From Streptomyces sp. NBC_00569 (GTDB lineage: Bacteria; Actinomycetota; Actinomycetes; Streptomycetales; Streptomycetaceae), in assembly GCF_036345255.1 (NCBI RefSeq), contig NZ_CP107783.1, positions 6,246,001 through 6,310,000 on the forward strand: DNA of 64,000 bases, in the 5' to 3' direction. Made by a program: the position numbers and the translations under genes. This document shows positions 13,750 through 28,554 of this stretch, in pieces (position 1 is the first letter of the stretch; the number at the start of each line of letters is the position of its first letter). The notes under the pieces are model-generated. The model was not told where the DNA came from and made no database searches. It worked only from the letters and a program-made list of their open reading frames with translations.

Positions 13750-15702
13750 TCAGGAAGCCGTCAGCAGCGCGGAGATACGATCCGGCGCCACCGGGCGTGA
13801 GTACAGCCAGCCCTGTCCCGTGTCGCAGCCGATCTGGCGCAGGCGCGCTGCTTGCGCCGCCGTCTCCACGCACTCCGCGGTGACCGTGAGACCGAGCCGG
13901 TGCGCGAGCTGCACCATGGCCTCGACGATGACGGCGTCCGCGGGGGTCGCGTGCTCGCCCCCGTCGTCGTACTGGAATCCGCGCACGAACGAGCCGTCCA
14001 GCTTCAGGACCGACACCGGGAGCCGGCTCAGATACGCGAGGTTCGAGTAGCCGGTGCCGAAGTCGTCGATGGCGATGTGCACGCCCATGTCGCTCAGCGA
14101 CTGCAGGGCCTGGAGGGGGCGGCCCGCCGAGCCCATCACCGCCGACTCCGTCAGTTCCAACTGGAGGAGTTCCGGAGCGAGTCCGGTCTCCGCGAGGACC
14201 TCGGCGACATCCGCCACCAGGTCCGAGTCCCATACCTGACGCACCGCCACGTTCACGCTCACGTAGACCGGCGGCGCCTCGGGGTGCTCCAGCTGCCAGC
14301 TGCGCGCCTGCCGGCACGCCGTGCGCAGGATCCACCGGCCCAGCTGCACGATGGAGCCGTCCTCCTCGGCCAGTCCGATGAACCGATTCGGCGTGAGCAT
14401 TCCGAACTGGGGATGGTCCCAGCGCACGAGCGCCTCGACGCCGCGCAGCACTCCGTCACCCAGATTCACCAGCGGCTGGTACTCGAGGACGAACTCGCCG
14501 CGCTCCACCGCGGGACGCAGGCCCGACGACAGGGCCTGGCGGGTCATCCGGTGCGCGTTGCGCTCCGGGTCGAAGAGCGTCCAGCGCGCCTTGCCGTCGG
14601 CCTTCGCCCAGTACAGCGTGGTGTCCGCGGCCTGCATCAGACCCGTCGCGGTCGTGCCCTCCATGTGCCGCTCCACGACCCCGATCGAGGCCGACACGGC
14701 GAGCCGCTGCCCTGACAGGTCGAACGGTTCCTGGACCGAGCGGAGCACCGACTCGGCGAGCCCCGCAAGCTGTTCCGTACCGGCCGAGTCCTCCACGAGC
14801 AGCGCGAACTCGTCGCCGCCGAGCCGCGCCACCAGCGGCGCCGCGGCCCTCTGGCCGTAGCCGATCCGGTCGGCGCAGCGCGTCAGGCGCTCGGCGACGG
14901 CGGCGAGCAGCCGGTCCCCGATGCCGTGCCCGAGCGTGTCGTTGACCGCCTTGAACCCGTCGAGGTCGAGATAGCACAGCCCGATCCGGCCGCTGCCCGC
15001 CCCGTCGTACGCGCCCGCCTCCAGCGCGGCGGAGAGCCGCTCGAAGAACAGCGTGCGGTTCGGCAGCCGGGTCACCGGGTCGTGCATCTGCAAGTGCCGC
15101 AGCCGCGCCTGGAGTTCACGGCGGGCGCTGATGTCGGTGAGGGAGAGCAGCACCGTACGGCCGCCCGGCACCGGCGAGACGGTGACCTGCACCCACACGG
15201 AGTGCCCGTCGGGGTGCTTGATCCTGCGGGTGCACGTCAGCCGCGCCTGCCGCCCGCGCAGTACCTCCTGGTACGTGTGCCAGGTGCGGGAGTCGGACGC
15301 CAGGTCCACCAGTTCCGCCGCCGTGTGCCCGGTCAGCCGGCCGGGGTCCTCCACGCCGAGCATCACGGCGAGCGCGGCGTTCGCGGTGACCACCTGGCCC
15401 CGGCGGTCCACCACGGCCAGGGCGAGGGGTGCGGCGAGGAACGCCGAGAGGTAGGGCGCGGGCGGAGGAGGGGGCTCGACGCCGAGCGCCTCGTGGGCCC
15501 GGGCGTCCGGGCCCGTGCGTACGGAGTCCGGGGCGGCGGCGTGCGGGGGCGCCGCCACCGCTGCGGAACTCTCCGTGACGGCGCGGCGGGTGGAGTCGGG
15601 TGCCGCGCCGGCCGCGGTCATCGGCCCTTCGGACATTCCGCTCACCGCTCGCTCCCGCAGTGCAGTCGTTCCGGGGGTCCGGGAGGGTTGCTCCCGGGTC
15701 AT
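13750..15702 (-). CDS. PAS-GGDEF-EAL cyclic di-GMP turnover protein
   Basis: The protein (650 residues from ATG 15702) has a Ser/Ala/Pro-rich N-terminus, a PAS domain (about 85-200: LALAVVDRRGQVVTANAALAV), a GGDEF domain (about 215-370) with the intact RLGGDEF active site, and an EAL domain (about 395-645) with EAL, NVAVRQ, ELTESAVM, IDDFGTGYSNL, KLDGSFV and AECVE. Both halves keep their catalytic motifs, so it may make and degrade c-di-GMP. In Streptomyces c-di-GMP controls development through BldD. No membrane segment is evident. The start is uncertain: ATG 15636 is an alternative and neither has a strong ribosome site. Confidence 0.9.
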   Translation of the reverse strand: MTREQPSRTPGTTALRERAVSGMSEGPMTAAGAAPDSTRRAVTESSAAVAAPPHAAAPDSVRTGPDARAHEALGVEPPPPPAPYLSAFLAAPLALAVVDRRGQVVTANAALAVMLGVEDPGRLTGHTAAELVDLASDSRTWHTYQEVLRGRQARLTCTRRIKHPDGHSVWVQVTVSPVPGGRTVLLSLTDISARRELQARLRHLQMHDPVTRLPNRTLFFERLSAALEAGAYDGAGSGRIGLCYLDLDGFKAVNDTLGHGIGDRLLAAVAERLTRCADRIGYGQRAAAPLVARLGGDEFALLVEDSAGTEQLAGLAESVLRSVQEPFDLSGQRLAVSASIGVVERHMEGTTATGLMQAADTTLYWAKADGKARWTLFDPERNAHRMTRQALSSGLRPAVERGEFVLEYQPLVNLGDGVLRGVEALVRWDHPQFGMLTPNRFIGLAEEDGSIVQLGRWILRTACRQARSWQLEHPEAPPVYVSVNVAVRQVWDSDLVADVAEVLAETGLAPELLQLELTESAVMGSAGRPLQALQSLSDMGVHIAIDDFGTGYSNLAYLSRLPVSVLKLDGSFVRGFQYDDGGEHATPADAVIVEAMVQLAHRLGLTVTAECVETAAQAARLRQIGCDTGQGWLYSRPVAPDRISALLTAS

Positions 15703-16010
15703 CACAGTCCGGGTGGCGAACGGCCTTCGCAGCCGGGCCCGCAGGAAAGTGTGCCGATCATAGAGGCAGCCCCGAGGCGCGATCCAGCCTTGCCCGCCCG
15801 ATCCGCCGGTTCGGCGGCATCCCGGGGTAGCCGGCAGATCGTTTCTGCCCTTCCCTGGCACTGCTTTTGGTCTCCCGCGATCATGCGTGACGTTCCGTGA
15901 CCGCTTGGGGTGTCGCCTCCTCACCCGACCGGGCCAGATAAACAGGGCGAAGTAGTACAAATCATCACACTCTGGGTTGGGTGTCCCGCTTTCCCCATCC
16001 GGAGGTCGAC
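15703..16010. other. Divergent intergenic region, 308 bases
   Basis: This gap separates the GGDEF-EAL gene from the M6 protease gene and must hold both promoters. Apart from the GGAGG ribosome site at its right end I see no convincing operator, RNA or small gene in it. Confidence 0.6.
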
Positions 16011-17282
16011 TTGCCGCGTCCGCTGCCACCCGGTGGAGTGGAGAGGCCCCGCCTGCGCTCCGCCGGTGCGGCCCTCACCGCGTTCGCCGCCATGGCCGCC
16101 ACGTCCCTGGTCGCGGGCCCCGCGGTCGCGGCCCCGTACGCGGGACCGTGCGCGCTGGAGCGCACGGCGGCCCACCACTCGGAGGGCCTCGACACCTGGA
16201 ACAACGCCTACCCGCGCCCGGTCCGGACCCTCAACGCGGTGATGGTCTTCCTCTCCTTCCCCGACTCCCGGCCGACGGCCACCCCTGAGGAACTCACGGC
16301 CGACTACTTCCCCGCCACCAGCGACTTCTACGAGCGGTCCTCCTACGGGAAGTTCCACCTGGTCCCGCACCCGCAGCGCCACTGGCTCCGCATGCCGCAC
16401 ACCTCGACGTCGTACGCCATAGAGCGCGACTGGGACGTCGCGCACCGCGGCGCCTATCTGCGCGACGCCCTCGCCACGGCCGACCCGCACACCGACTTCA
16501 GCAAGTTCGACATCGTCTACTTCGTCGCCGACCCCGACGCCCCGGGCGTCGACTCGGACGCCACGAAGGTCGTCAACTTCGACCGGCCGATGCGCGCCGA
16601 CGGCACGGACATCAAGCGCATCGTCACCGTCTTCGAGCAGCATCCGCCCGACCGCAACGTCCTGGCCCACGAGACGGGCCACGTCTTCGACCTTCCGGAC
16701 CTCTACCACCGGCCGACCGACGGCAAGGGCGACTGGGACACGTACGTCGGTGACTGGGATGTCATGGGCAGTCAGTTCGGGCTCGCGCCCGACCTCTTCG
16801 GCTGGCACAAGTGGAAGCTGGGGTGGCTGGCCCGGCGGCAGGTCGTGTGCGTGACGGGCAGCCGGCGGCTCACCCTCGAACCCCTGACGTCCGCACCCGC
16901 GCGTCCGGGCGCGGCGCCCGGAACCAACGGTGCGCCCTTCGGCGTGGGCGCCGGGACGAAGCTCGCCGTCGTACGCACCGGGGAGGACAGTGCGATCGCT
17001 CTGGAGGCCCGCAGCGCCGACGGCAACGACGCGGCGACGTGCTCCGAAGGCATCCTCGTCTACCGCGTGCGCAACGAGACTCCCTCCGGCAGCGGCCCGA
17101 TCGAGGTGCTCGACGCACACCCCCACACGGACGCGTGCTACGGCGACTCGGTCTCTCCACCGCTCGCGGACGCACCGGTACGGGTGGGCGAGAGCTTCAA
17201 GGTACCGGGCGAGAACGTACGGGTGAAGGTCGAGGGGCGCACGCGGTCGGGGTCTTGGACGGTCAAGGTCGAGACGGGCTGA
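16011..17282 (+). CDS. Secreted M6-family metalloprotease domain protein
   Basis: A 423-residue exported zinc protease. The signal peptide (about 1-40) ends with AVA. The zinc motif is His220-Glu-Thr-Gly-His224 (LAHETGHVFDLPDLYH), followed by GDWDVMGSQFG, the pattern of M6 (immune-inhibitor-A-like) peptidases. A C-terminal beta-rich domain of about 130 residues follows. I start at TTG 16011 because CGGAGG lies five bases ahead; an upstream GTG at 15981 lacks such a site. It likely degrades extracellular protein during growth on complex substrates. The gene ends just before the second tRNA-Lys repeat region. Confidence 0.88.
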   Translation: MPRPLPPGGVERPRLRSAGAALTAFAAMAATSLVAGPAVAAPYAGPCALERTAAHHSEGLDTWNNAYPRPVRTLNAVMVFLSFPDSRPTATPEELTADYFPATSDFYERSSYGKFHLVPHPQRHWLRMPHTSTSYAIERDWDVAHRGAYLRDALATADPHTDFSKFDIVYFVADPDAPGVDSDATKVVNFDRPMRADGTDIKRIVTVFEQHPPDRNVLAHETGHVFDLPDLYHRPTDGKGDWDTYVGDWDVMGSQFGLAPDLFGWHKWKLGWLARRQVVCVTGSRRLTLEPLTSAPARPGAAPGTNGAPFGVGAGTKLAVVRTGEDSAIALEARSADGNDAATCSEGILVYRVRNETPSGSGPIEVLDAHPHTDACYGDSVSPPLADAPVRVGESFKVPGENVRVKVEGRTRSGSWTVKVETG

Positions 17283-17392
17283 ACGACTGTCGCGGTGGCC
17301 GCGTCGCTGTACCGGCGTACCGGCGTACCGGCGCACCGCTGTCGCAAGGAGTGGCAATTTCTCCGAGCGCCCGCCCCGCACCGGCATACGCA

Positions 17393-17469
17393 AGAAGCCC
17401 CTCGCTCTTGCGTGGGGGGCCTTCGCTTGTCTGTGCGCCGCCAGGGACTCGAACCCCGGACCCGCTGAT
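17393..17469 (-). repeat. Truncated tRNA-Lys 3' fragment plus decayed hairpin, second locus
   Basis: Bases 17434-17469 repeat the last 36 bases of tRNA-Lys, 148 bases from the intact gene, exactly the arrangement at 3268-3303. The adjoining hairpin (about 17393-17425) is an imperfect version of the tRNA terminator. The 72-base spacer 17470-17541 matches 3304-3375 with about three changes. Confidence 0.88.
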
Positions 17470-17541
17470 GCTGTGTCTTTCCGGGGGGCGACCCCCGGGC
17501 CCCCGGCCGCCTTCGCCGCGTCGGAGTGGGTCCGTCAATGG

Positions 17542-17573
17542 CGAAGGCCCCCCACTTGCGTGGGGGGCCTTCG
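17542..17573. terminator. Terminator hairpin of the second tRNA-Lys
   Basis: CGAAGGCCCCCC and GGGGGGCCTTCG face each other around a short loop directly downstream of the minus-strand tRNA. It differs from the first locus hairpin by one base that perfects the stem. Confidence 0.8.
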
Positions 17574-17581
17574 CTTGTCTG

Positions 17582-17655
17582 TGCGCCGCCAGGGACTCGA
17601 ACCCCGGACCCGCTGATTAAGAGTCAGCTGCTCTAACCAACTGAGCTAGCGGCGC
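17582..17655 (-). tRNA. tRNA-Lys (anticodon CTT), second copy
   Basis: The 74 bases are identical in sequence and fold to the copy at 3416-3489, with anticodon CTT in loop CTCTTAA. It has the same orientation, so the two copies form a direct repeat about 14 kb apart. Its first ten bases overlap the end of the upstream protein gene on the same strand. Confidence 0.97.
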
Positions 17656-18272
17656 CTGCTGACGTCGTAGACCTTAGCATCCTGATCCGGGCCAGGAAAA
17701 ATCGATATCCGCACCGCAGGTTTGGCGCTCGCGCGGGCCGCCCGGACGCAGGCCCAGAGCATGACCTCGGGTCCCGGCAACCAGGGGTGGCGGGTGTCCG
17801 GGGCGACCACCCAGCGTGAGTCGGCGTGGGGTCCCCCGGCGTGGTCGGTGCCCCCGGCCGGCGGCGGGACGGTCACGGCGTCACCGGTTCCATGGCACAG
17901 GAGGGGCGGCACGGCGGGGCCCCACTCCTCCCACTCCAGGAGCGAGGGCAGCCGGTGGGCGGTGCCGGGTGCCGTGAACAGGAGCATGCGGCCGCGGTGC
18001 GCGGCGACCGGGCCCGAGCCGGGGCCGTCCTCCCACAGCGCGTCCAACATCCGGCGCCCGAACATCGACGGCACGTTCACCACGTCGAAGGCGGTGCCGC
18101 AGGGCAGCACCACGGGGGCGCCGGGCCGGGACTCCCAGAACGCGAGGGTGCTGCGCGGATGCGTTCCTGCCGAGGCGAGCCACGCGGCGCCCTCCCGAGT
18201 GGCGCCCGCGATGTCGAACCGGTCGTACCGGGTCAGCGGGCCGGTGCTGTTCTGGCGATATGCGGCGCTCAT
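17646..18272 (-). CDS. Primase/polymerase-like protein, catalytic acids not evident
   Basis: A 208-residue protein of a conserved Streptomyces family usually labelled bifunctional DNA primase/polymerase N-terminal-like. Recognizable blocks are TLAFWESRPGAPVVLPCG, FDVVNVP, LLEWEEWGP, WVVAPDTRHPWLPG and QDAKVYDVSRRR. Active Prim-Pol domains carry a D-h-D/E metal site after the conserved beta strand; here I see only one Asp (AFDVVNV), so catalysis is doubtful. The start is ATG 18272, with a weak ribosome site. The stop codon TAG lies inside the 5' end of the tRNA-Lys gene, so processing of a shared transcript would remove it. Confidence 0.75.
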   Translation of the reverse strand: MSAAYRQNSTGPLTRYDRFDIAGATREGAAWLASAGTHPRSTLAFWESRPGAPVVLPCGTAFDVVNVPSMFGRRMLDALWEDGPGSGPVAAHRGRMLLFTAPGTAHRLPSLLEWEEWGPAVPPLLCHGTGDAVTVPPPAGGTDHAGGPHADSRWVVAPDTRHPWLPGPEVMLWACVRAARASAKPAVRISIFPGPDQDAKVYDVSRRR

Positions 18273-18361
18273 GGCATTTACATCTACCGGCCGTGAGCGC
18301 GCGACTTCCCAGGGTTGCCGGAAATCGGGACAGGAGGGGGCGGGGTGGAGTATCTTGCCCC

Positions 18362-18375
18362 CTGGCATATGCCAG
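18362..18375. promoter_or_regulatory. Palindrome CTGGCATATGCCAG upstream of the primase-like gene
   Basis: A perfect 14-base palindrome 90 bases before the start of the primase-like gene. Its 12-base core also occurs at 4441-4452. It looks like an operator for an unidentified dimeric regulator. Confidence 0.45.
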
Positions 18376-18409
18376 ATGATCTTTACGGGGTGTGGTTGCC
18401 GCGGCGTCG

Positions 18410-18763
18410 CTAGGGCCGGTTCTCGGCGGGCCCGCGCATCAGGTCGCGGCCGAACTCGACCATCTTCTTCGCGTAGTCCTCGGTCCACTGCGCCTGCTCG
18501 GCGATCGCCGCGGCCGTCAGGCGGTCGAAGCGGCGCGGGTCGGCGAGCTGGGCCGCAGCCAGGGCCTGGAACTCCACGGACCGGTCGGCCGCAGCGCGGA
18601 ACGCGTGCGTCAGCTCCGTGGCGCGGGCGAGCAGCTCGCTCGGGTCCTCGATCGCCTCCAGGTCGAAGAAGTGCTCCGGGTCCGCGGCGGCCTCGGCCGG
18701 CTCGAAGAGCAGCGGGGCCGGACGCATCCGCCTCTCGGTACGGGCCCGCTCGGGCTCGGCCAT
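18410..18763 (-). CDS. Small conserved acidic protein, unknown function
   Basis: A 117-residue protein from ATG 18763, with GGAGGAA well placed. It has no signal peptide or membrane helix. The sequence is alpha-helical in character (DPSELLARATELTHAFRAAADRSVEFQALAAAQLADPRRFDRLTAAAIAE cannot be tied to a named domain by me) and ends with GRDLMRGPAENRP. It stands alone between the helicase operon and the primase-like gene, same strand, 91 bases after the helicase stop. I do not recognize its function. Confidence 0.8.
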   Translation of the reverse strand: MAEPERARTERRMRPAPLLFEPAEAAADPEHFFDLEAIEDPSELLARATELTHAFRAAADRSVEFQALAAAQLADPRRFDRLTAAAIAEQAQWTEDYAKKMVEFGRDLMRGPAENRP

Positions 18764-18854
18764 GATGTTCCTCCTCGTACGGTGTGCAGCCCGCGTCGCC
18801 GCCGGGGCCACCTTCTATTCTCCGCAGGCCCGCAAGAGCGCCCCGTTGTTCAGT

Positions 18855-20231
18855 TCAAGGCGTCCACGCCACCCGGTGTTCCGTGAGGCGGGCCAGTACC
18901 GCGTGATTCGCCTCCCAGCCGTCCGGGAATTTCACCGTCACCCCCAGTTGGACCGGTTCCGTCGACGGGTGGTCGTCCAGCAGGTCGGGGACGCCCGCGC
19001 GGCAGACCACGATGCACGCGTGGCGGTGGCGGGACGCCAGGACGCACAGACGGCCGGTCTCCAGGTGGAACGCCGTCGCGTCGGGGCGGCCCGAGAGCGG
19101 GTGCAGGACGACCGTGACGTCGAACTCGCGGCCCTGCAGCCGGTTCGCCGTGTCCACGGTGACGTCCGTGACGCCGAGCTCCGCGAGCGCCGAGCGCACC
19201 GCCGCCGCCTGGTCGCGATGCGCCGTGCCGACCGCGATGCGGTCCGCCGTGAGCGGGGACGGGTCGGGGCCGCGCTCCGAGAGCGTGACGCCGCCGCGGT
19301 CGAGCAGCCGCCGCACCACCTGGGCCAGGGCCCGAACCGCCTCGGGGTCCGTGCGGGGCGTGTGACCGGCCGGGAGTTCGAGCAGGCCCCAGCCCGACTC
19401 CGCCGCCTCGTCGATCACCCGGTCCGGGCCCGAGCCGTCGGACGCCACCGTGAACCCCAGGCTGCGGTCGCCGTGGTCCGTACCGCTGCGGAAGGGCGTG
19501 TACGGGTAGAAGGCGCCGGAGACCAGCGGCGCGGCGGACGCCGGGAGGCGCCAGGAGACCGGGAGCCGGTGCTGCGGCAGCTCGGGGTTGTGCGCCAGGA
19601 GCGTCGTCACGGCGGACGCCGAAGGGTCGTACGACAGGCCCGCCCACTGTTCGGCCCCGACGATCGCGAACGGGTCCAGCTGGCCCGGATCACCCACGAA
19701 CAGCGCCCGCTCGAACAGGCCCGCCACGGCGAGCAGCGCGTCCGAACGCATCTGGTACGCCTCGTCGACGATGGCGTGCTGCCAGGGGTCGATGTCCTTG
19801 ACGTGCGCCCACTTCGCGGCCGTCGAGATGACGACCGGCAGCGGCGCCAGGTCACCGGCCTTGGTCGACTTGCGCACGTTGACCAGGTCGTCGAGTGCCT
19901 TGTCGTACGGGTCGGGGTCGCTGCTGTGCAGGCGCCCGACGGGCAGCTCGGGGTTCTTCTCGGCGAGGCGCAGGACGAGGTCGTCGACCTGCGCGTTCGT
20001 CTGGGCGATGACCATCAACGGACGTCCCGCCTCGGCCAGTTCGAGCGCGGCCCGCACCACGAGCGTCGACTTCCCGGCGCCGGGCGGGGAGTCCACGACG
20101 GTGCCGCGGGCCGTGCCGTGCAGGGTGTCGTGGAGGATCGCGTCGGTGGCGCGGCCGGCCGCCGCCCCCGGGTCGAACGGGGTGTCGCCGCTCGTGCCCG
20201 AGCGGCCGGGCTGATGCGGTGCGGCCGTCAC
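18855..20231 (-). CDS. SF1B Upf1/Dna2-like helicase
   Basis: A compact 458-residue superfamily 1 helicase. Motif I is SPPGAGKST (Lys54), motif II VDEA (Asp156-Glu157), motif III GDPGQLDP (180-187), motif IV around VSWRLPASAAPLVSGAFY, motif V NRLQGREFDVTVV, and motif VI the region LCVLASRHRHACIVVCR. The order and the sWRLP...FY pattern are of the Upf1/Dna2/AAA_12 type, normally 5'-3' helicases. It lacks a large inserted domain. GTG 20231 overlaps the preceding stop by four bases (GTGA), so it is coupled to the unknown 532-residue protein and, through it, to a Cas4-like nuclease. I infer that these work as a nuclease-helicase complex on DNA ends or flaps. Confidence 0.87.
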   Translation of the reverse strand: MTAAPHQPGRSGTSGDTPFDPGAAAGRATDAILHDTLHGTARGTVVDSPPGAGKSTLVVRAALELAEAGRPLMVIAQTNAQVDDLVLRLAEKNPELPVGRLHSSDPDPYDKALDDLVNVRKSTKAGDLAPLPVVISTAAKWAHVKDIDPWQHAIVDEAYQMRSDALLAVAGLFERALFVGDPGQLDPFAIVGAEQWAGLSYDPSASAVTTLLAHNPELPQHRLPVSWRLPASAAPLVSGAFYPYTPFRSGTDHGDRSLGFTVASDGSGPDRVIDEAAESGWGLLELPAGHTPRTDPEAVRALAQVVRRLLDRGGVTLSERGPDPSPLTADRIAVGTAHRDQAAAVRSALAELGVTDVTVDTANRLQGREFDVTVVLHPLSGRPDATAFHLETGRLCVLASRHRHACIVVCRAGVPDLLDDHPSTEPVQLGVTVKFPDGWEANHAVLARLTEHRVAWTP

Positions 20232-21826
20232 AGCAGATCCTCCGTGGTCACGGCGTCCGGCGCCTCAGGCACCGGTGCGCCCGAGCCGTCCATGTGCGGC
20301 GGGCCGCCGTGGGTCCACGGCGTCTCTTCCGGGTCCGGCAGCTTCGGGCCGCCCCGCTGCTCGTGCTCGAAGAGCGTGAAGCACACCTGGTCACCCTTCT
20401 CCGGGACGGACCCCGGCTCCGGCTCCTTGCCGCGGCCCATCTTGTCCAGGACGCGCAGGACGACCCCGCCCCCGGCGTCGTACGACACGAACTCCGCGGC
20501 CTGCGGCTTGCCGTCGAGCGAGCGGTACACCTTCGTGCGCTCGTCGAGATGCGGCACGTCGTCGGTGCGGACGGTGATCAGGGGCCGCGGCCGGTTCTTC
20601 TCGTTGTACGCCGGCACCGACTCGGTCACCTCGCCCGCGAACGCCTCCCCGGTGAGCCGTCGGCCCGCCATGACCAGCGGGTCGTCGAGCGCCTCCTGCG
20701 CGTCCAGCCTGGCCTGTTCTCGCTCGCGCGTCGCCAGCTTGTTGGCCGCCGTCACCGCGTCGTCGCGGCGCGGCTGCGGCGGCTCGCCCGCGGCGACGCG
20801 GTCCCGGTGGCCGGTGAACGACCAGCGGTCGCGCGTCCAGCGCTCCGCGGCGCGTGGCCCCTCGGGGAGCGTGCACAGCGCGTCCAGGCCACGCCACACC
20901 GCGTCCCACGTGGGCCGGGTCCGGCTCTCGACGAGCGCGTGGATCTCGCGCTCGGCCGCCGTCAGCGCGGCCAGCCTCATGTCCGCCTCGATGCCGTCCT
21001 CGGCGGCGGCCAGCAGGGTGCGGGCCTTGTTGTAGCGCTCGATCGCGGGTGCCAGCAGCTTGTTGTCGAACGCGGGGTCGGTGGCCGGGCCGGCGGGCGG
21101 GCAGACGAGCTGGCCGTCCTTGTCCCGGGCCAGCTCGGCGCGGAGCGCGGCCTCGGCGCCCGACGCGCCCTCCGGGGCCTCGATCCAGGCGAGCAGCGAG
21201 CCCAGGTGCTGGTCCTCCAGGGTGGACTGGCCCGTCGCCCAGTGCCGGGACAGCAGGTCCGTCATGGCGAGCAGCAGCGCGGAACCGGGAACCCTGGCCC
21301 GCTCCCCGAAGTGCGTCAGCCAGCGGCCCAGGAGCGGGACGTGGGGCGGCGCGGGATACGGCGCTTCGGGCTCCTGCTCGGCGGTGCGGCGGAACCGCAT
21401 CGAGCGCCCCAGAAGCCGTACGAACTCGATGCCGGAGCGGCTCGGCAGGATCAGCTGGGGCGCGTCCGCGCACAGCTCGACCTCCACCTTGACCCGCTTG
21501 CCGGTCGTGGGGTCCGTCTCGGCGCGCTCGGCGGCCTCGACGTCGGCCGCGAACCCGTCGACGTACGGCAGGACGATCCCTGCCAGCTCGGCGAGGAAGG
21601 CGAAGCGCAGGTCGCGGTCGCGGGGCTGGGGCACCACGAGAAGCCGGGGCGAGGTGCGCTCCGTGCCGACGAGCGCGCCGAGCGGGGCGCCCGCCTCGCC
21701 GGCCGTGATGAGCGGGACGAGGACGAGGGGGCGCTGCGACAGATGACGGTGCCGCACGGTCGCGACCGGCTGGGCGCGCCCGCTCTGCACGGCCTCCAGA
21801 CGGGCCAGATCGTTGATCAGGGCCAT
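20228..21826 (-). CDS. Unknown 532-residue middle protein of nuclease-helicase operon
   Basis: I do not recognize this protein. It has no signal peptide, membrane helix or Walker motif. The N-terminal third is beta-rich (PLVLVPLITAGEAG, PRLLVVPQPRDRDLRFAFLAELAG). The middle (about 250-400) is strongly helical and charged, possibly coiled. The C-terminal part (about 400-500: PLITVRTDDVPHLDERTKVY, FVSYDAGGGVVLRVLD, DQVCFTLFEHE) looks like a small beta domain. ATG 21826 has GAGGAGG ahead and overlaps the nuclease stop by 10 bases; its own stop overlaps the helicase start. The tight coupling suggests a scaffold or DNA-clamp subunit of the same complex. Confidence 0.85.
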   Translation of the reverse strand: MALINDLARLEAVQSGRAQPVATVRHRHLSQRPLVLVPLITAGEAGAPLGALVGTERTSPRLLVVPQPRDRDLRFAFLAELAGIVLPYVDGFAADVEAAERAETDPTTGKRVKVEVELCADAPQLILPSRSGIEFVRLLGRSMRFRRTAEQEPEAPYPAPPHVPLLGRWLTHFGERARVPGSALLLAMTDLLSRHWATGQSTLEDQHLGSLLAWIEAPEGASGAEAALRAELARDKDGQLVCPPAGPATDPAFDNKLLAPAIERYNKARTLLAAAEDGIEADMRLAALTAAEREIHALVESRTRPTWDAVWRGLDALCTLPEGPRAAERWTRDRWSFTGHRDRVAAGEPPQPRRDDAVTAANKLATREREQARLDAQEALDDPLVMAGRRLTGEAFAGEVTESVPAYNEKNRPRPLITVRTDDVPHLDERTKVYRSLDGKPQAAEFVSYDAGGGVVLRVLDKMGRGKEPEPGSVPEKGDQVCFTLFEHEQRGGPKLPDPEETPWTHGGPPHMDGSGAPVPEAPDAVTTEDLL

Positions 21827-23061
21827 GACGGCGCCTCCTCTCCGCGCGCGCCGAGCGCCTCGCCCCGCAGCCGGGCCGCCCGGCGCAGGGCGGCGACCGC
21901 CGGGTCCAGCGGGTCGCCGGAGTGGCCGTGGGCGGCCGAGAGGACCTCGTCGACCGTGGTCAGACCGCCCAGCTCGGCCCGAAGGCCGCGGCCGAGCGAG
22001 GTGACCGCGCCCTGATCACGGGCCCGGTCGCGGCAGTGGAACGCCAGCTCGCACGCGGCCAGGCACTCCGGCGCGTATGTCGCCGGCACCGACTCGACCG
22101 CCTCCGTCAGCTCGTCCGCGGGCAGCGTGACGTCGAAGCAGGTGCCTTCGGGCAGCGCGTCCGCGATGTCCTCGATGCGGGTGAGCCGCTCCAGCTGCCG
22201 CCGTGTCACCGACAGCTGCTTGCGCACGTCGACGGCGGATGCCGCCGGAAGGTTGCTGAAGTCCTTGGGGCAGACGAGCAGGACCCGGTGCCTGACCTCG
22301 GGCGCCGGATCCAGGTGCCCGGCGACCCGCTCGAGGGCCAGCACGTACACCGCGGCCTGGCGGGCCGCGGCGCCGACCTTCGCCGCGTCCGCGCTGCCGT
22401 CGATCATCGGGAAGGACTTGATCTCGACGACCGTCCACGTCCCGTCGGGGTGCACGACCACTGCGTCCGGTTCGAGGAAGGCCGGGGTGCCCGCGACGTC
22501 CAGGGCGAGCATCGGGTGCTCCAGGAACGTCCAGGCGCCGGAGGCGGCCGCTTCCGCCGTCGCCTCACGCAGCGCGAGCGCCGTACGGGCCGTGCGGCCC
22601 TCGGGTCCGGCCGCCGTCAGATCCGGCGTACGGGCCCGGCCCGGCACCGGCTCCGGGCCGCCGCCCATGCGCTCGTGCACGAGCCGGAGCAGCTCCGTGC
22701 CCCCGTCGGCCTTGACCTTCGCCTCGAACGCGTTTCCCCGCATGAACGCGAACTGTGACTGGCCGAAACCGGACGGCGCCCCGAGCGCGTCCGCGAGCCG
22801 CGCCTTGTCGACGCCCGCCCCGTCGAGCAGCGCGCGCCGCCGGCACCCGGGGTTCGCCGCGAGCGCGGCCAGCGCCCGCGCGTCGAGCGCCCGTGGCGGT
22901 ATGTCACTGCCACGCAGCTCAGCGAGCTTTCCCCAGACTCTCGGCTTCGCTCGGGCAGGGGAGGCCCCAGTCGGCAGTGCCGTCCCTCGCGTCGGAGGAG
23001 CGGGCACCCGGGCCGCCGCCCGGTCCTGCACTGACCTTGCGCTGTCGGGGAATTCGCTCAC
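21817..23061 (-). CDS. Cas4/RecB-like PD-(D/E)XK nuclease with Fe-S cysteine pattern
   Basis: The 414-residue protein (GTG 23061) carries the RecB nuclease core in order: RGNAFE (Glu113), LEPDAVVV (Asp199), VVEIKSF (Glu213, Lys215) and QAAVY (Gln235, Tyr239, the QxxxY motif). Around it lie Cys73 (NPGCRRR) and Cys333-x3-Cys337-x5-Cys343, the layout of the 4Fe-4S cluster in Cas4, AddB and Dna2. It should be a cytoplasmic single-strand or end-dependent DNA nuclease. It opens a coupled operon with the unknown protein and the helicase. Its first 143 bases overlap the end of the PAP2 gene in another frame; no in-frame ATG or GTG after that overlap gives a complete domain. Confidence 0.85.
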   Translation of the reverse strand: MSEFPDSARSVQDRAAARVPAPPTRGTALPTGASPARAKPRVWGKLAELRGSDIPPRALDARALAALAANPGCRRRALLDGAGVDKARLADALGAPSGFGQSQFAFMRGNAFEAKVKADGGTELLRLVHERMGGGPEPVPGRARTPDLTAAGPEGRTARTALALREATAEAAASGAWTFLEHPMLALDVAGTPAFLEPDAVVVHPDGTWTVVEIKSFPMIDGSADAAKVGAAARQAAVYVLALERVAGHLDPAPEVRHRVLLVCPKDFSNLPAASAVDVRKQLSVTRRQLERLTRIEDIADALPEGTCFDVTLPADELTEAVESVPATYAPECLAACELAFHCRDRARDQGAVTSLGRGLRAELGGLTTVDEVLSAAHGHSGDPLDPAVAALRRAARLRGEALGARGEEAPSWP

Positions 23062-23932
23062 CCGCCGAAGTCTGGCACTCCCCACTGACAATCGAGGACG
23101 CCGCCGTGGAGGCCGGGGCGGGGAAGGTGCGGCCGGGCCGTGCGGAACCGGCCACGGGCGCGCTGCGCACACGGGCCCGTGCGAGGTCCGCTGCCCGCAC
23201 CACGCGTCGGCTGACCAGGAACCCGAGGCCCATCACGGCGACCCCGGCGAGCGCGTCGAAGAGGTAGTGGTTCGCGGTGCCCATCACCACGAAGGCGGTG
23301 ATCAGCGGGTAGGCGATGCCGGCCGCCCTGACCAGCGGCGTACGGCCGTGGCGCCACAGCATGACCCCACACCACATCGCCCAGCCGACGTGCAGGCTGG
23401 GCATCGCCGCGTACTGGTTGGTCATGCCGCCGAGCCCGCGCGGCGCGCTGGCCTGGCCGCCCCACCAGCCCCACGAGCTGTACTGGGCCATGGTGTCGAC
23501 GAATCCGTGGCCGGGGGACAGCAGGCGCGGCGGGCAGGTCGGTACGAGGGTGAAGCCGATCAGGCCGATCAGAGTGGAGGTCATCAGCCAGGTCCGGGCG
23601 GCGCGGAAGTGGACGGCGCGGCTGCGGAAGAGCCAGATCAGGATGCCCGGAGTGACGAGGTAGTGCAGTGAGGCGTACCAGAAGTCGGCGGGGACACCGA
23701 TCCAGGCCTCGGCGGTGAAGAGACGGTTCAGCGGGTGTTCGAGGTTGAGATGGAGTGCCTTCTCGGCCCGGAGTATCGCGAGGCCGTGGTCGACGGCGCT
23801 CGCCTCGTCCCCGCGCACCATGAGCCGGCCCGCCGAATAGGCGGCGTACACCATCACGATCAGCGGCAGTTCGGTCCACCAGCGCAGCCGGTCGCCTGTC
23901 GCCGCAGTGGACGGTGCCTCGGTCTGCGACAT
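22919..23932 (-). CDS. PAP2-family membrane phosphatase (Aur1/Ipt1-like)
   Basis: A 337-residue protein with about six membrane helices in the first 250 residues. The PAP2 catalytic signatures are AAMPSLHVGWAMW (PSLH) and GTANHYLFDALAG (HxxxD). It probably dephosphorylates or transfers a lipid-linked phosphate at the outer face of the membrane; actinobacterial relatives are linked to polyprenol or phosphoinositide metabolism. ATG 23932 has GGGGGAG seven bases ahead. The last 90 residues are a hydrophilic Ser/Pro/Gly-rich tail, partly encoded in DNA shared with the nuclease gene, and may be read-out of non-selected sequence. Confidence 0.88.
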   Translation of the reverse strand: MSQTEAPSTAATGDRLRWWTELPLIVMVYAAYSAGRLMVRGDEASAVDHGLAILRAEKALHLNLEHPLNRLFTAEAWIGVPADFWYASLHYLVTPGILIWLFRSRAVHFRAARTWLMTSTLIGLIGFTLVPTCPPRLLSPGHGFVDTMAQYSSWGWWGGQASAPRGLGGMTNQYAAMPSLHVGWAMWCGVMLWRHGRTPLVRAAGIAYPLITAFVVMGTANHYLFDALAGVAVMGLGFLVSRRVVRAADLARARVRSAPVAGSARPGRTFPAPASTAASSIVSGECQTSAGERIPRQRKVSAGPGGGPGARSSDARDGTADWGLPCPSEAESLGKAR

Positions 23933-24155
23933 CAGGCCGCTCCCCCTTAACTCCCTGTACGGCGGCCCGTGGCCACGTGGACCACTTTACGGTGTATGTG
24001 TCCGCCTGGAAGGGGCGCCTCCGACCCACGAAGACGCAACGATCGCCCGGTGGGTTGCCTGAATCCCGGGTGAGCGATGATGGAACGAGCGGGCGCGCCT
24101 GGCCTGACTTATCGGTACATGGCAGCCCTTTTCAGTCCCCTCGGAAAGGTCACTC

Positions 24156-24761
24156 ATGGCACCGCGCATCCTGTTGGCCCGGCATGGACAGACGGAATGG
24201 TCACTGTCCGGGCGGCACACCGGCAGGACCGACATCCCCCTCCTCGAAGAGGGACGGCGCGGCGCGAAGCTCCTCGGTGAACGTCTGCACCGGTCGCCCC
24301 TCGACGGACTCCCCGGCGCCGAGGTCCGCACCAGCCCCCTCTCCCGCGCGCGAGAGACCTGCGAACTCGCCGGCTTCGGCGAGCGCGCCACGGAGTGGGA
24401 CACGCTCATGGAGTGGGACTACGGCGCGTACGAGGGCCTGACCCCCGCCCAGATCCAGGAGCGGCGCCCCGGCTGGTTCATCTGGCGCGACGGCGTTCCC
24501 GAGGGCGAGACCCTGGAGCAGATGACCGCCCGCGCCGACGAGGTCGTCGCCTGGGCCAGATCCGAGAACCGCGACGCCCTGGTCTTCGCGCACGGCCACA
24601 TGCTGCGCTCCATCGGCGCCCGCTGGCTGGGCCTCCCGCTGGACTTCGCGGCCCGCATCCGCCTCAACCCGACGTCCCTGTCGGTCCTCGGCTGGGCCTA
24701 CGGGGAACCCGCGATCGAGTCGTGGAACGACATCGGCCACCTCGCGGGCCACGAGGGCTAG
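24156..24761 (+). CDS. Histidine phosphatase family protein
   Basis: A 201-residue cytoplasmic phosphatase of the phosphoglycerate-mutase-like superfamily. The catalytic motif LARHGQTEW is at residues 7-15, followed by [17 protein letters not shown], the acid in [13 protein letters not shown], and the second His in [17 protein letters not shown]. Small-molecule phosphatase activity is likely; the substrate is unknown. It stands alone, with a 223-base gap upstream in which I see no distinct feature. Confidence 0.92.
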
Positions 24762-24821
24762 GGCCTTTCTGCCGGACGGGACCGGGCTGGGCTCACGGGG
24801 TCCTGGAGACGCCGGCGGTGC

Positions 24822-26219
24822 TCACGCCGTGCGCGGCGCCGACGCGTGCTGCTCCAGGAACGCCGAGACGCCCGACGCCCTGCGGTGCGGAAGGAGCACG
24901 CGCGCGGTGGTTGCCAGCATCGACTGGATGCGCGACGACTGGACCTCGGTCAGCAGATGCAGGACCCGCATCCCCGCGGACGCGGCCTCGTCGGGCTGGC
25001 CCGCGCGCGCCAGGTCGTCGGCCAGCTCCGCCGTGTACAGGGCGATGTTCCGGGTGAAGTGCGGGTCCTGGAGGGCCGCGGCGCGGCGCGCGTGCCGGGC
25101 CGCGCGCGTCCAGTCGCCGAGCGCCGAGTAGCACTGCGCCTCCAGGCCCTCCAGCTCGGCCTCGCCGTAGAACGTCATCCACTCCGGGTCGTCGTCCGAC
25201 CGCCCGCGCGCGAAGAGGGCCTGCGCCCGGGCCAGTGCCCGCTCGCACCCCCTGCGGTCGCCGAGCCCCGCCCAGCCGCCCGCCTCGCGCAGCGCGAGCA
25301 GCGACAGGAGCCGTGGCGACGCCAGCTGGGCCGCGACGCGCGTGGCCGCCTGCGCCGCCCGCACCGCCTCTCTCGGCCGCCCCGCGTCCCGCGCCAGGAA
25401 CGCCGTGTTGCAGAACGCGTGCGCCTCCAGCGCCGGGTCGCCCGCCACGCGCGCGGTGGCCAGTGCCTCCGCATAGTGCGAGCGCGCGTCGTCGAATCGG
25501 CCCGAGTCGTGCGCCAACCAGCCGACGGAGATGGCCAGTTCACCCGCCCCGGCCTGGAGCCGCTCGGCCGTGCCGGGCGCCGCCGTCCCCGCGTCGAGCA
25601 GTGCGAACGCGGTACGCAGCGGGGCCGCGGCTCTCTTGTAGAGCCCGTCGGCGCCGTGCCGGTCGTCGAGCAGCCGGATCCGGCGGATGGCCTCCTCGAC
25701 CGCGCCGACACCGGCCTCGGGCGCCGCGCGCCCGCCGTGGCCCGCGGCGGTTGACCTCGCCGCATGGGCTGCCGTGCCGTCGGCCGCGATGCCGAGGGGC
25801 GCCAGGGAGGCGATGGCCACGGTGGCCGTCCCTCCGGTCATGAATGCGCGACGCCGCACGTCGCTCTCCTCGTCGTGGTGCGGGAACTCGAACTCGGTGC
25901 GCGCGAGGGGTACGGGCTCCGCGGGGCGTGCCGCCCTGCCGCGTACGGCCGAGCGGGGCACGAACCCCAGATCCGTGAGCGAACGGCCGGGGAACATATG
26001 CAGGAACACCCGCTCGTACGCGTAGTTGGGACAGCGGATCTCGCCGGCCTCCACCCGCCCGATGTAGCGCGCGTCGCAGCTGACCCGCTCGCCGATCTCC
26101 CGGGCGGCGCGTCGCACCGCGGCCGCGAACTCGCCAGGAGAGCGCTGCCCACGCAGCCGCCTGAAGGCGAGATTCGGCCGCGGGGACTGCGCTGACGATG
26201 CCACCGGTGACGGCGTCAT
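24822..26219 (-). CDS. TPR-containing regulator with N-terminal HTH-like region
   Basis: A 465-residue protein from ATG 26219. The N-terminal 90 residues ([28 protein letters not shown], then SCDARYIGRVEAGEIRCPNYAYERVFLHMF) look like an XRE-type DNA-binding domain. A Tat/hydrophobic-like segment (RRRAFMTGGTATVAIASLAPLG, about 128-150) follows, then TPR-like helical repeats (about 200-450: SHYAEALATARVAGDPALEAHAF, ALGDWTRAARHARRAAALQD). Streptomyces have many such regulators, several affecting development and antibiotic production. The gene is divergent from a small conserved protein, a frequent pairing. No specific name is justified. Confidence 0.85.
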   Translation of the reverse strand: MTPSPVASSAQSPRPNLAFRRLRGQRSPGEFAAAVRRAAREIGERVSCDARYIGRVEAGEIRCPNYAYERVFLHMFPGRSLTDLGFVPRSAVRGRAARPAEPVPLARTEFEFPHHDEESDVRRRAFMTGGTATVAIASLAPLGIAADGTAAHAARSTAAGHGGRAAPEAGVGAVEEAIRRIRLLDDRHGADGLYKRAAAPLRTAFALLDAGTAAPGTAERLQAGAGELAISVGWLAHDSGRFDDARSHYAEALATARVAGDPALEAHAFCNTAFLARDAGRPREAVRAAQAATRVAAQLASPRLLSLLALREAGGWAGLGDRRGCERALARAQALFARGRSDDDPEWMTFYGEAELEGLEAQCYSALGDWTRAARHARRAAALQDPHFTRNIALYTAELADDLARAGQPDEAASAGMRVLHLLTEVQSSRIQSMLATTARVLLPHRRASGVSAFLEQHASAPRTA

Positions 26220-26507
26220 GACCGGGCCCTCTCGTGCGAACCGTGCCGGATCACCGGGGAGTTGGGCCTCTGTGGGCCCTGGTGCAACCCCTGTTCCGAC
26301 GGGGCACGAAGGTACCTGCTGTAACGACTCCGACACGCAGTGTTTAGCTACAAACGGGATATCTCACCCCGCATCCGCCATGAAGTGCCATCCTTTGCGG
26401 CGGCGTGCCGCCGTAGCTGTTGACGCCTACGGGCGTTGAACCTTGCGGGGCCGGAGCGGTCGCGTTCCGGTCGTGCAACCCGTACGCGAGAGCGAGGAGG
26501 GGCTGAC

Positions 26508-26945
26508 GTGTTGGAGGCATCACTTTCGACGGCGCGGCACCGGCCGACCCAGGATCACAGCGCGCCACCCCGTGACAGCGCGTCCTGCGACGTGGTGACC
26601 GTCCCGGCCCGCCAGGGCCTCGAAGCGGTCGACATCCTGCGCCGCGGCGCCACCGAGGCCGTCGGCCCGGTCCTGCACGACGGGGACTGCGACACCCTCG
26701 GCTTCCTCGTGCCGCCGGGCACCGCCGACGCCTGGGACGTCCCCGGCAGCGCCTGCACCCACACCCCCGCGTCCCCCTCGCCGGAGCGAGGCCCCGGTGC
26801 GGGGCCCGTGCCGCCCGCCCCCGTCGAGGGCGGCGGCTGGCTGCTCCCTCCCGGCGGGGCCGAGCTCGTCACCGACCCGGCGGTCCTGCGGGCGGCGCTC
26901 GGCGAGGCGGCCCGCATGATCGAAGCCGCGGACAACTGCCGCTGA
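26508..26945 (+). CDS. Conserved Streptomyces protein divergent from TPR regulator, unknown
   Basis: A 145-residue protein from GTG 26508, preceded by GAGGAGGGG. Longer in-frame reading upstream is Arg-rich and looks non-coding. It has two conserved-looking blocks, CDVVTVPARQGLEAVDIL with VGPVLHDGDCDTLGFLVPPGTAD, and EGGGWLLPPGGAEL with AALGEAARMIEAADNCR, separated by a Pro-rich linker. No domain is recognized. The block order resembles small proteins that accompany HTH-TPR regulators in Streptomyces, so it may be its partner or target; this is inference. Confidence 0.78.
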   Translation: MLEASLSTARHRPTQDHSAPPRDSASCDVVTVPARQGLEAVDILRRGATEAVGPVLHDGDCDTLGFLVPPGTADAWDVPGSACTHTPASPSPERGPGAGPVPPAPVEGGGWLLPPGGAELVTDPAVLRAALGEAARMIEAADNCR

Positions 26946-26963
26946 GGCCTGGCCGCCGGTCCC

Positions 26964-27038
26964 TCGCGGCCCCTGGCTTCGCGGCCCCTGGCTTCGCGGC
27001 CCCTGGCTTCGCGGCCCCTGGCCTCGCGGCCGCTGGGC
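26964..27038. repeat. Five tandem copies of a 15-base unit
   Basis: The unit TCGCGGCCCCTGGCT occurs perfectly three times (26964-27008), then with one change (27009-27023) and in degenerate form (27024-27038). It lies 31 bases before the methyltransferase start and is in no gene. Copy number may vary between strains. Confidence 0.9.
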
Positions 27039-27069
27039 CGACTCGTCCCCGCCCGTCGATAATGGGCAG

Positions 27070-27945
27070 ATGGCAAGGGCAAAGAACAAGCAGGCCGGAG
27101 CGGCCCGCGGCGGCCGGGGGGCCGTCGTCGAGGCCGTCGACGGCGGGCTCGCCGAGCTGATACCCGACCGGGACCGGCCGCGCGCCTGGACGCTGCTCGT
27201 GGACGGCGCCCCGCAGTCGCACGTCGACCTCGACGATCCCGGGCACCTGGAATTCGAGTACCAGCGCAGGATCGGCCACGTCATCGACCTCGCCGTGGAC
27301 AAGGGCCGTCCCGTGCACGCCGTGCACCTGGGAGGCGGCGCCTTCACCCTCGCCCGCTACATCGCCGCGACCCGCCCCCGCTCCACCCAGCAAGTGGTCG
27401 AGCGCGACGAGGCACTCGTCCAACTGGTGCGCCGCGAGCTGCCGTTGGACCCCGGCACCCGGATCCGCGTCCGCACCGGCGACGCCCGCGAGGGCCTCGC
27501 GAAACTCCCCGACGGCTGGGCCGACCTCCTGATAGCCGACGTGTTCAGCGGAGCGCGTACGCCCGCGCACCTCACCAGCACCGAGTTCCTCGCCGAGGTA
27601 CGCCGCGTGGTCAAGCCCGGCGGGTGCTACGTCGCCAACCTCGCCGACGGGCCGCCCCTCGCGCATCTGCGCGGCCAGATCGCCACCGCCGCGGCCGTCT
27701 TCCCCGAGCTCGCCCTCGTCGCCGACCCGGCCGTCCTGCGCGGCAAGCGCTTCGGCAACGCGGTGCTTGTCGCCTCCGACCGGGTCCTGCCCGTAGCCGA
27801 ACTGACCCGGCGCGCGGCCGGCGATCCGCATCCCGCCCGCGTCGAACACGGCAAGGCCCTCTCGGACTTCACCGGGGGCGCCGGTGCCGTCAGCGACTCG
27901 CGCGCCGTCGCTTCGCCTGCTCCACCGCCGTCCGTATTCCGGTGA
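27070..27945 (+). CDS. Spermidine-synthase-like methyltransferase-fold protein
   Basis: A 291-residue protein with the spermidine synthase/methyltransferase Rossmann fold: QSHVDLDDPGHLEFEYQRRIGHVID, then AVHLGGGAFTLARYIAATRP (cofactor loop), VVERDEALVQLVRREL, RTGDAREGLAKLPDGWADLLIADVFSG. The QSHVD...FEY opening is typical of actinobacterial spermidine-synthase-like proteins, many of which lack true aminopropyltransferase activity. ATG 27070 is the only sensible start. The C-terminal 30 residues are a low-complexity tail. Function remains unassigned. Confidence 0.88.
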   Translation: MARAKNKQAGAARGGRGAVVEAVDGGLAELIPDRDRPRAWTLLVDGAPQSHVDLDDPGHLEFEYQRRIGHVIDLAVDKGRPVHAVHLGGGAFTLARYIAATRPRSTQQVVERDEALVQLVRRELPLDPGTRIRVRTGDAREGLAKLPDGWADLLIADVFSGARTPAHLTSTEFLAEVRRVVKPGGCYVANLADGPPLAHLRGQIATAAAVFPELALVADPAVLRGKRFGNAVLVASDRVLPVAELTRRAAGDPHPARVEHGKALSDFTGGAGAVSDSRAVASPAPPPSVFR

Positions 27946-27999
27946 CGGGGGGCCGAGGAGGCGTCCCGGGCAGGCCGGGATGGGTGGTCGTGCGCGTGG

Positions 28000-28554
28000 T
28001 CAGTACTTCGCCACTTCCACGCTCGGCGCGTGGTCGTGCCACGTACAGAACACCGAGACCTTGTCCGTGCCCGAGGTGAACTCCACCCTGATCCACGTCG
28101 AGTCCTTCCACACCTGCACCGACCAGCCGGCCGCGGGTGTCGCCGACACCAGCGTCGCCGAGTCCTTGCCCAGGTCGAACACGGCACGGCCGCCCTGCGT
28201 CGTGTAGCCCTTCACCGTGCCGGACGCCGACGGCGACGCGGGCGGCTTCGCGGAGGTGCTCGGTCGCGGCGTGCGGCTCGCGGACGGGGTGGCCGGGCCA
28301 GGGGAGCGCGACGGCTTCCGCGATGCGGAGTGTGACGGCGACGCCGGTGGCGACGACGACTCCGGGCGGTGCGTCGACGACGCCCGCGCGTCCACCGCTC
28401 CCGCGGCGATCGGTACCGCGCGCGGCGGGTCGTACGCGGTGCCCGCCATCACCGTGTGCACGCCCCACCACGACAGCGTGACGGCCGCACCGGTGGCCAG
28501 GAGCCAGGCCGCCGTGTGAACAAGTCCTCTGCGCATGGGGTGCATCGCGGCCAT
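28000..28554 (-). CDS. Exported or membrane-anchored protein with Ser/Pro linker, unknown
   Basis: A 184-residue protein. The N-terminus has a membrane helix or signal (LVHTAAWLLATGAAVTLSWWGV), then a Ser/Pro/Ala-rich linker (about 60-115), then a compact beta domain of about 65 residues (YTTQGGRAVFDLGKDSATLV, WSVQVWKDSTWIRVEF, VSVFCTWHD). The starts at 28554, 28545 and 28536 are all in frame; I list the longest. The layout suggests a small surface domain held away from the membrane. It is divergent from an OmpR-type response regulator, 101 bases away, and could be its target or sensor accessory. Confidence 0.75.
   Translation of the reverse strand: MAAMHPMRRGLVHTAAWLLATGAAVTLSWWGVHTVMAGTAYDPPRAVPIAAGAVDARASSTHRPESSSPPASPSHSASRKPSRSPGPATPSASRTPRPSTSAKPPASPSASGTVKGYTTQGGRAVFDLGKDSATLVSATPAAGWSVQVWKDSTWIRVEFTSGTDKVSVFCTWHDHAPSVEVAKY

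Follow-up and report, generated by a model that had tools for sequence, protein, structure and literature searches.

A three-gene operon conserved across Streptomyces that most likely encodes a split helicase-nuclease

In the window, the 64,000 nt of Streptomyces sp. NBC_00569 analysed here (NZ_CP107783.1, positions 6,246,001-6,310,000), three genes on the minus strand at 18855-23061, which we call NUC, MID and HEL for the nuclease, the middle protein and the motor, constitute a real, conserved three-gene system that is most likely a split helicase-nuclease. The gene order, overlaps, conservation, co-occurrence, motifs and neighbourhoods of this trio were observed directly, and its parts are located as follows.

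21817-23061, minus strand: NUC, 414 residues from a GTG at 23061 (reading frame open up to 23172); a Cas4/RecB-type PD-(D/E)XK protein with four conserved cysteines, its conserved part starting at about residue 44
22417-22473, minus strand: NUC residues 197-215, catalytic motif LEPD...EIK (Glu197, Asp199, Glu213, Lys215)
22033-22065, minus strand: NUC C333-x3-C337-x5-C343, which with Cys73 (22843-22845) are putative iron-sulphur (Fe-S) ligands
20228-21826, minus strand: MID, 532 residues
20828-21736, minus strand: MID residues 31-333, predicted RNase H-like domain, similar to the family-B DNA polymerase exonuclease domain
20348-20773, minus strand: MID residues 352-493, predicted stalk and beta-barrel resembling IGHMBP2 residues 3-146 (domain 1B)
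20297-20323, minus strand: MID residues 502-510, C-terminal TPWTHGGPP, among the most conserved stretches of MID
18855-20231, minus strand: HEL, 458 residues; a superfamily 1B (SF1B) Upf1/DNA2-type motor without the N-terminal 1B domain
20064-20087, minus strand: HEL residues 49-56, Walker A PPGAGKST

NUC and MID overlap by 10 nt (atggccctga) and MID and HEL by 4 nt (gtga); these overlapping ends, as well as Cys73, C333-x3-C337-x5-C343, Walker A Lys54 and the GDPGQL motif, all lie where an original prediction made on this DNA had put them. Among 80 named Streptomyces loci, five end before NUC and 75 have both genes; in 64 of these, the end of NUC runs 10 or 4 nt into MID, an approximate count as the starts were picked by script. 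Overlaps at the junctions recur across families, and no nuclease-helicase fusion was found among the surveyed loci, the window itself holding three separate open reading frames. The start of NUC is uncertain because its reading frame overlaps, at 22919-23172, the 3′ end of the upstream PAP2 gene on the same strand in a different frame. No LexA-type box (GAACN4GTTC) is present upstream of NUC in the window or in the named Streptomyces loci with NUC.

The earlier assignment of NUC as a RecB-type nuclease with a characteristic set of cysteines is borne out. The protein lies within the PD-(D/E)XK clan, its predicted fold matches Cas4, MGME1, EXO5, RecB, AddAB and DNA2 (Foldseek), and the cysteines are near-invariant among 235 sequences (Cys73 in 233; Cys333, Cys337 and Cys343 in all 235). 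The catalytic residues are likewise kept (Asp199 in 234, Glu213 in 231 and Lys215 in 232), with the caveat that the sets used for NUC and HEL are mostly from Streptomyces, so that the sequences are not independent. NUC has a PD-(D/E)XK core with a QxxxY motif in common with Cas4, AddB, EXO5 and MGME1, and a cysteine layout comparable to that of Cas4, AddB and DNA2. Nucleases of the latter type usually carry x2, not x3, between the first two C-terminal cysteines; x2 is found in the NUC of one distant locus (L164). Judged by its sequence, NUC would be a nuclease of the Cas4/AddB kind whose Fe-S cluster is structural. Unlike at Cas4 loci, no cas genes occur among the ten neighbours scanned against Pfam (13750-28554). 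Searches of the window protein against Pfam, PADLOC and NCBIfam returned a chance-level DUF4440 match only, and the NUC profile matched in the PDB two designed proteins made of helical repeats and, weakly, one viral entry, all judged spurious. In the NUC of three loci (L161, L168 and L169) the catalytic Glu is lost, in two of them along with the Lys, and all four cysteines are retained.

HEL matches AAA_11 and AAA_12 in Pfam, DNA2 is the best-scoring solved helicase for its profile in the PDB (E 9.6e-13; IGHMBP2, E 7e-12), and Walker A Lys54 and the pair DE156-157 are kept in 238 of 238 HEL sequences, in agreement with its earlier description as an SF1B helicase; Upf1 and a viral RNA helicase model are matched as well. 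A stalk and a 1B barrel precede the motor in IGHMBP2, Upf1 and DNA2. In HEL a short, variable stretch is all that lies ahead of domain 1A. The HEL profile aligns to IGHMBP2 residues 203-265, and IGHMBP2 residues 3-146 align to MID residues 352-493, so that MID followed by HEL covers the helicase in order. The helicase thus seems, on the basis of modelled structure for its first part, to be divided between two genes, with the stalk and 1B barrel on MID and the motor from domain 1A onwards on HEL.

MID had been called unrecognized, and it remains so for family searches: the window protein has no Pfam, NCBIfam or PADLOC match, and its profile finds nothing in the PDB. A model of moderate quality suggests that it consists of an RNase H-like domain followed by the stalk and 1B barrel. 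On a rough reading, the catalytic acids of the RNase H-like domain are apparently missing, and no match to RNase_H_2 (PF13482) is listed for any of 27 MID members, although the model shows an RNase H-like fold. Within TPWTHGGPP, the WTH is invariant in an alignment of these 27 members; the motif was not seen in the distant MID of a locus from another class (L215, below). Two observations somewhat weaken the main reading set out below: Foldseek ranks unrelated folds above Upf1, and a MID match in a distant genome, which covers the first 292 of 500 profile positions, does not reach the 1B part. The structures were derived from alignments of the window proteins with 79 of 197 candidate MID and 69 of 189 candidate NUC sequences, from Streptomyces only, and the fold comparison comprises Foldseek's own matches, so that other folds are possible. 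No viral relative was confirmed among 29 pattern matches in viral contigs, for which MID alone was searched.

The proposal that the three genes stay together in other genomes held up. Within the class, 70 of 394 genomes have MID, comprising 39 of 40 Streptomyces genomes (the window's own counted) and 31 of the 354 others, and outside the genus it reaches five further families. Of 118 genomes, 15 have NUC, and these 15 are also the ones with MID and with strong HEL matches; weaker HEL-like matches are found in 21 more. A sample of the phylum yielded matches in 15 of 396 genomes, one of which (G624) belongs to another class; its locus, L215, retains the order NUC-MID-HEL with a 4-nt overlap at both junctions, and a TM0106-family (TIGR03491) nuclease gene lies 22 nt after HEL (5559-7214 of L215). 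The core locus is syntenic across Streptomyces, and the three genes are under purifying selection, with ratios of nonsynonymous to synonymous substitution rates (dN/dS) of 0.135-0.289 against six Streptomyces genomes. In one genome (G095, genus f37 g61; L149 9932-12732), HEL and MID share a strand but are separated by about 36 kb, and transposase-like genes stand immediately ahead of HEL.

MID-like and HEL-like genes also occur as a pair. Plasmids of Rhodococcus, Mycolicibacterium, Xylanimonas and Euzebya encode a 388-448-residue protein followed by a small HEL-like helicase, and a profile of the four proteins matches the MID profile with an E of 5e-10 (probability 96.6%, 244 columns). In three of the four (L203, L205 and L206, from Rhodococcus, Xylanimonas and Mycolicibacterium), the gene order is AAA ATPase (MoxR in one annotation), VWA-like, small protein, MID-like and HEL-like. 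The MID-like gene precedes the helicase gene as in the trio, but the AAA ATPase and VWA-like genes stand in place of NUC, for which no gene is annotated in the stretch of these operons. The existence of such pairs without NUC makes MID-HEL look like a unit, for which NUC, a gene termed X, SbcCD or Wadjet look like partners in different settings.

Gene X, of about 280 residues, lies ahead of NUC in a second type of trio present in 19 fetched loci. X was found in 22 of the 394 genomes, 16 of them outside Streptomyces, five Streptomyces genomes with a second trio and one with a remnant only (G269); MID accompanies X in 21 of these genomes, and in the remaining one, G087, X is partial and contains a stop. 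No X is present in the genome of the window, and the X of L187 gave no PADLOC or Pfam match. In a FastTree tree of 43 concatenated trios, rooted by choice on L164, the core Streptomyces copies form one clade without X and the second copies fall into three separate lineages; X is absent also in f37 and in f18 g47/g64, and its absences may, with that root, represent losses.

Some X-type copies adjoin genes for defence or DNA-processing machines. On two Streptomyces plasmids (L187 and L188) and near one chromosome contig end (L171), the genes JetA-JetB-JetC-JetD of Wadjet I come after X-NUC-MID-HEL in the same orientation (PADLOC was run on L187), and divergent SbcD- and SMC-like genes lie on the other side; an X-NUC-MID-HEL-JetABCD operon is carried by Streptomyces sp. 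WAC00288 and NBC_01244; a 749-residue helicase is encoded between the trio and the Wadjet I genes in L171, and the SbcD/SMC-like genes of L188 are in pieces. JetA and JetB of Wadjet II, with the start of JetC, come right after HEL in L163, and Wadjet II JetA/B stand beside SbcCD-like genes in L164. L168 and L169 contain genes of a pPIWI-RE island (those for Z/DinG and Y/REase, no search having been aimed at the PIWI gene), and genes for a type III methyltransferase and ResIII are close by in L169. Altogether, 9 of the 19 X-type loci have Wadjet (5), SbcCD-like (7) or pPIWI-RE (2) genes, a count in which L187/L188 and L168/L169 are close and hence not independent pairs. Probes for X and for these genes found none in 92 core Streptomyces loci (1.72 Mb); since the probes were drawn from the X-type loci, they would miss defence genes of other kinds beside the core copies, and the further checks on core context were Pfam searches on ten window neighbours and PF11855. 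JetA of Wadjet I was found in 1 of 40 Streptomyces genomes, 2.5 kb from a second trio, and among 10 plasmid records in two from Streptomyces, both times beside a trio; a search of 55 genomes gave one other match (G031, f4), on a different contig from the trio of that genome. Adjacency of the trio and Wadjet by chance is unlikely, but defence genes cluster, and a partnership is thus a candidate explanation.

On balance we favour, with some confidence, a model in which the products of the operon form one helicase-nuclease of three subunits, working in the manner of DNA2 or Bad. HEL would supply two RecA-like motor domains, moving 5′ to 3′ if it behaves as others of the SF1B family do, and MID would act as a scaffold that contributes the helicase stalk and 1B barrel, which HEL lacks, together with an RNase H-like domain that is apparently inactive. 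Co-translation would allow the three chains to fold together, and the complex would load on a free or flapped single strand and translocate, with NUC cutting the strand. Complex formation, direction, iron, substrate and role are what we infer for the trio; the role is likely DNA end or flap processing, linked to defence in the mobile copies and domesticated in the core copy. The core Streptomyces copy would probably process DNA ends, flaps or forks, and the X-bearing copies beside Wadjet, SbcCD-like and pPIWI-RE genes would probably degrade or process mobile-element DNA. A more ambitious version, which we put forward tentatively and rate below an even chance, is that the trio represents a new class in which a Upf1-type helicase is divided over MID and HEL, that together with X it processes ends as a hitherto undescribed partner of Wadjet I/II and SbcCD-like SMC systems and degrades the DNA they open, and that a version which lost X became domesticated in Streptomyces for core genome maintenance.

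Several known systems combine comparable parts. Eukaryotic DNA2 joins an Fe-S RecB-type nuclease to a Upf1-like motor, as here, and is matched by the HEL profile, but is fused in one chain; it is essential in eukaryotes, according to a study of Bad (PMC7430649). As described in the same study, Bad from Geobacillus is one chain with a four-Cys RecB-type nuclease, an unknown central part and an SF1B helicase (Walker A Lys815), and its gene adjoins that of a type III methyltransferase (PMC7430649). By that description, Bad has its parts in the order NUC-MID-HEL and a neighbour like that of the X-type copy L169, but is a single polypeptide, in contrast to the three genes of Streptomyces with a cut apparently between 1B and 1A. 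AddAB, RecBCD and AdnAB have a UvrD-type SF1A motor, from which HEL differs in being Upf1-like with AAA_11/AAA_12.

The original label of a split Dna2 raises the question of descent, since a true splitting of a fused TM0106/Bad-type nuclease-helicase would account for the shared architecture. TM0106 (TIGR03491) fusions hold a nuclease, RNase_H_2 and a Upf1-like helicase in one chain. Fused actinobacterial open reading frames of 1128-1435 residues were found, and 7 of 8 that were scanned (1128-1301 residues) have the same part order, with RNase_H_2, a gap of about 250 residues and then AAA_11/AAA_12; both of two scanned match TIGR03491. HEL is homologous to the fused helicases (E 6e-25 over 358 columns), but NUC (E 0.0096, probability 4.3%) and MID (E 0.42) show no significant similarity to the fused profile, the 27 MID members list no RNase_H_2 match, and the window NUC has no match to TIGR03491. 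With profile homology seen for HEL alone, we did not adopt splitting by descent and regard it as unlikely. The part order, four-Cys nuclease and SF1B motor of the label stand, and its kinship with the fused proteins does not extend to NUC and MID; because only HEL shows such homology, we liken the trio to DNA2 or Bad in the way it works without counting it among their members. It is similarly doubtful that HEL is complete alone and MID an unrelated adaptor whose 1B match reflects a common barrel. The MID barrel does also match F1-ATPase, ferredoxin-reductase-like and IF2 barrels, but little precedes domain 1A in HEL, MID 352-493 has stalk helices besides the barrel and precedes HEL in order, and MID-HEL pairs exist without NUC.

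A stronger competitor to the preferred DNA2/Bad-like reading, although still on the unlikely side, is that the main task of the trio is immunity to plasmids and phages wherever it occurs, core copy included, in partnership with Wadjet-like SMC systems. X-type copies adjoin Wadjet I (L171, L187, L188), Wadjet II (L163, L164), pPIWI-RE (L168, L169) and SbcCD-like genes (7 of 19 loci), the rare JetA of Wadjet I lies beside a trio in the one Streptomyces genome and both plasmid records that have it, and the second copies come from three separate lineages of the tree. Against this, the core copy is syntenic and present in nearly every Streptomyces genome, its 92 loci are free of the probed genes, and 10 of the 19 X-type loci have no such neighbour by these probes, with close pairs among the rest. 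Action on RNA in the manner of Upf1, in RNA surveillance or decay, could be imagined from the matches of HEL to Upf1 and to a viral RNA helicase model, but is very improbable: HEL is partnered by a PD-(D/E)XK nuclease of the RecB/Cas4 type, whose known substrate is DNA, DNA2 is the best-scoring solved helicase by sequence, and we take the neighbours of the X-type copies to act on DNA.

We found no description of the trio among the matches listed from the open-licence literature, where one may have been missed. For the S. coelicolor tags SCO2801-2812, a presumed counterpart by gene order, the papers listed include one with a membrane protein, SCO2807. The earlier statement that such a machine is not commonly described in actinomycetes fits the literature searched, but the genes themselves are near-universal in Streptomyces. 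If the preferred reading is true, the main antibiotic producers have a near-universal helicase-nuclease, which would be an added player in the DNA end processing of bacteria whose chromosomes are linear. A Upf1-type helicase split over two proteins would, to our knowledge, be a new architecture and a starting point for reconstitution. The link that some X-bearing copies show with Wadjet and SbcCD-like genes leads to a testable idea, namely that a helicase-nuclease works alongside SMC-type systems in plasmid restriction and clears away the cut DNA.

The copies beside Wadjet I are near ends: 14-18 kb from the chromosome contig end in L171 (G348), 12-16 kb from the end of a linear plasmid in L187 (NZ_CP108489) and 3-7 kb from the end of a record labelled circular in L188 (NZ_CP027023). 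A telomere role, at which these positions hint, was not adopted; other families have relatives too, and the positions are explained equally well or better by the defence context. On Streptomyces linear plasmids (L208-L210), an X-like gene stands in the order HU, X-like, a 624-708-residue protein and a protein of about 180-200 residues; the partners that were tested did not match the NUC, MID or HEL profiles.

Other genes around the trio in the window are the following.

27070-27945: spermidine-synthase-like gene (Pfam)
18410-18763, minus strand: 117-residue protein, downstream of HEL
17646-18488, minus strand: Prim-Pol protein (PF09250, E 1.1e-7), downstream of the 117-residue gene

A homologue of the 117-residue protein is found in 72 of the 80 named Streptomyces loci, some contigs being truncated, and one of the Prim-Pol protein in 69; among the loci fetched from other families, none showed a homologue of the latter. 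The primase/polymerase-like gene that had been reported nearby on the strand of the trio is this Prim-Pol gene. It directly adjoins a tRNA-Lys gene (17581-18488 together) and may be what is left of an integrated element.
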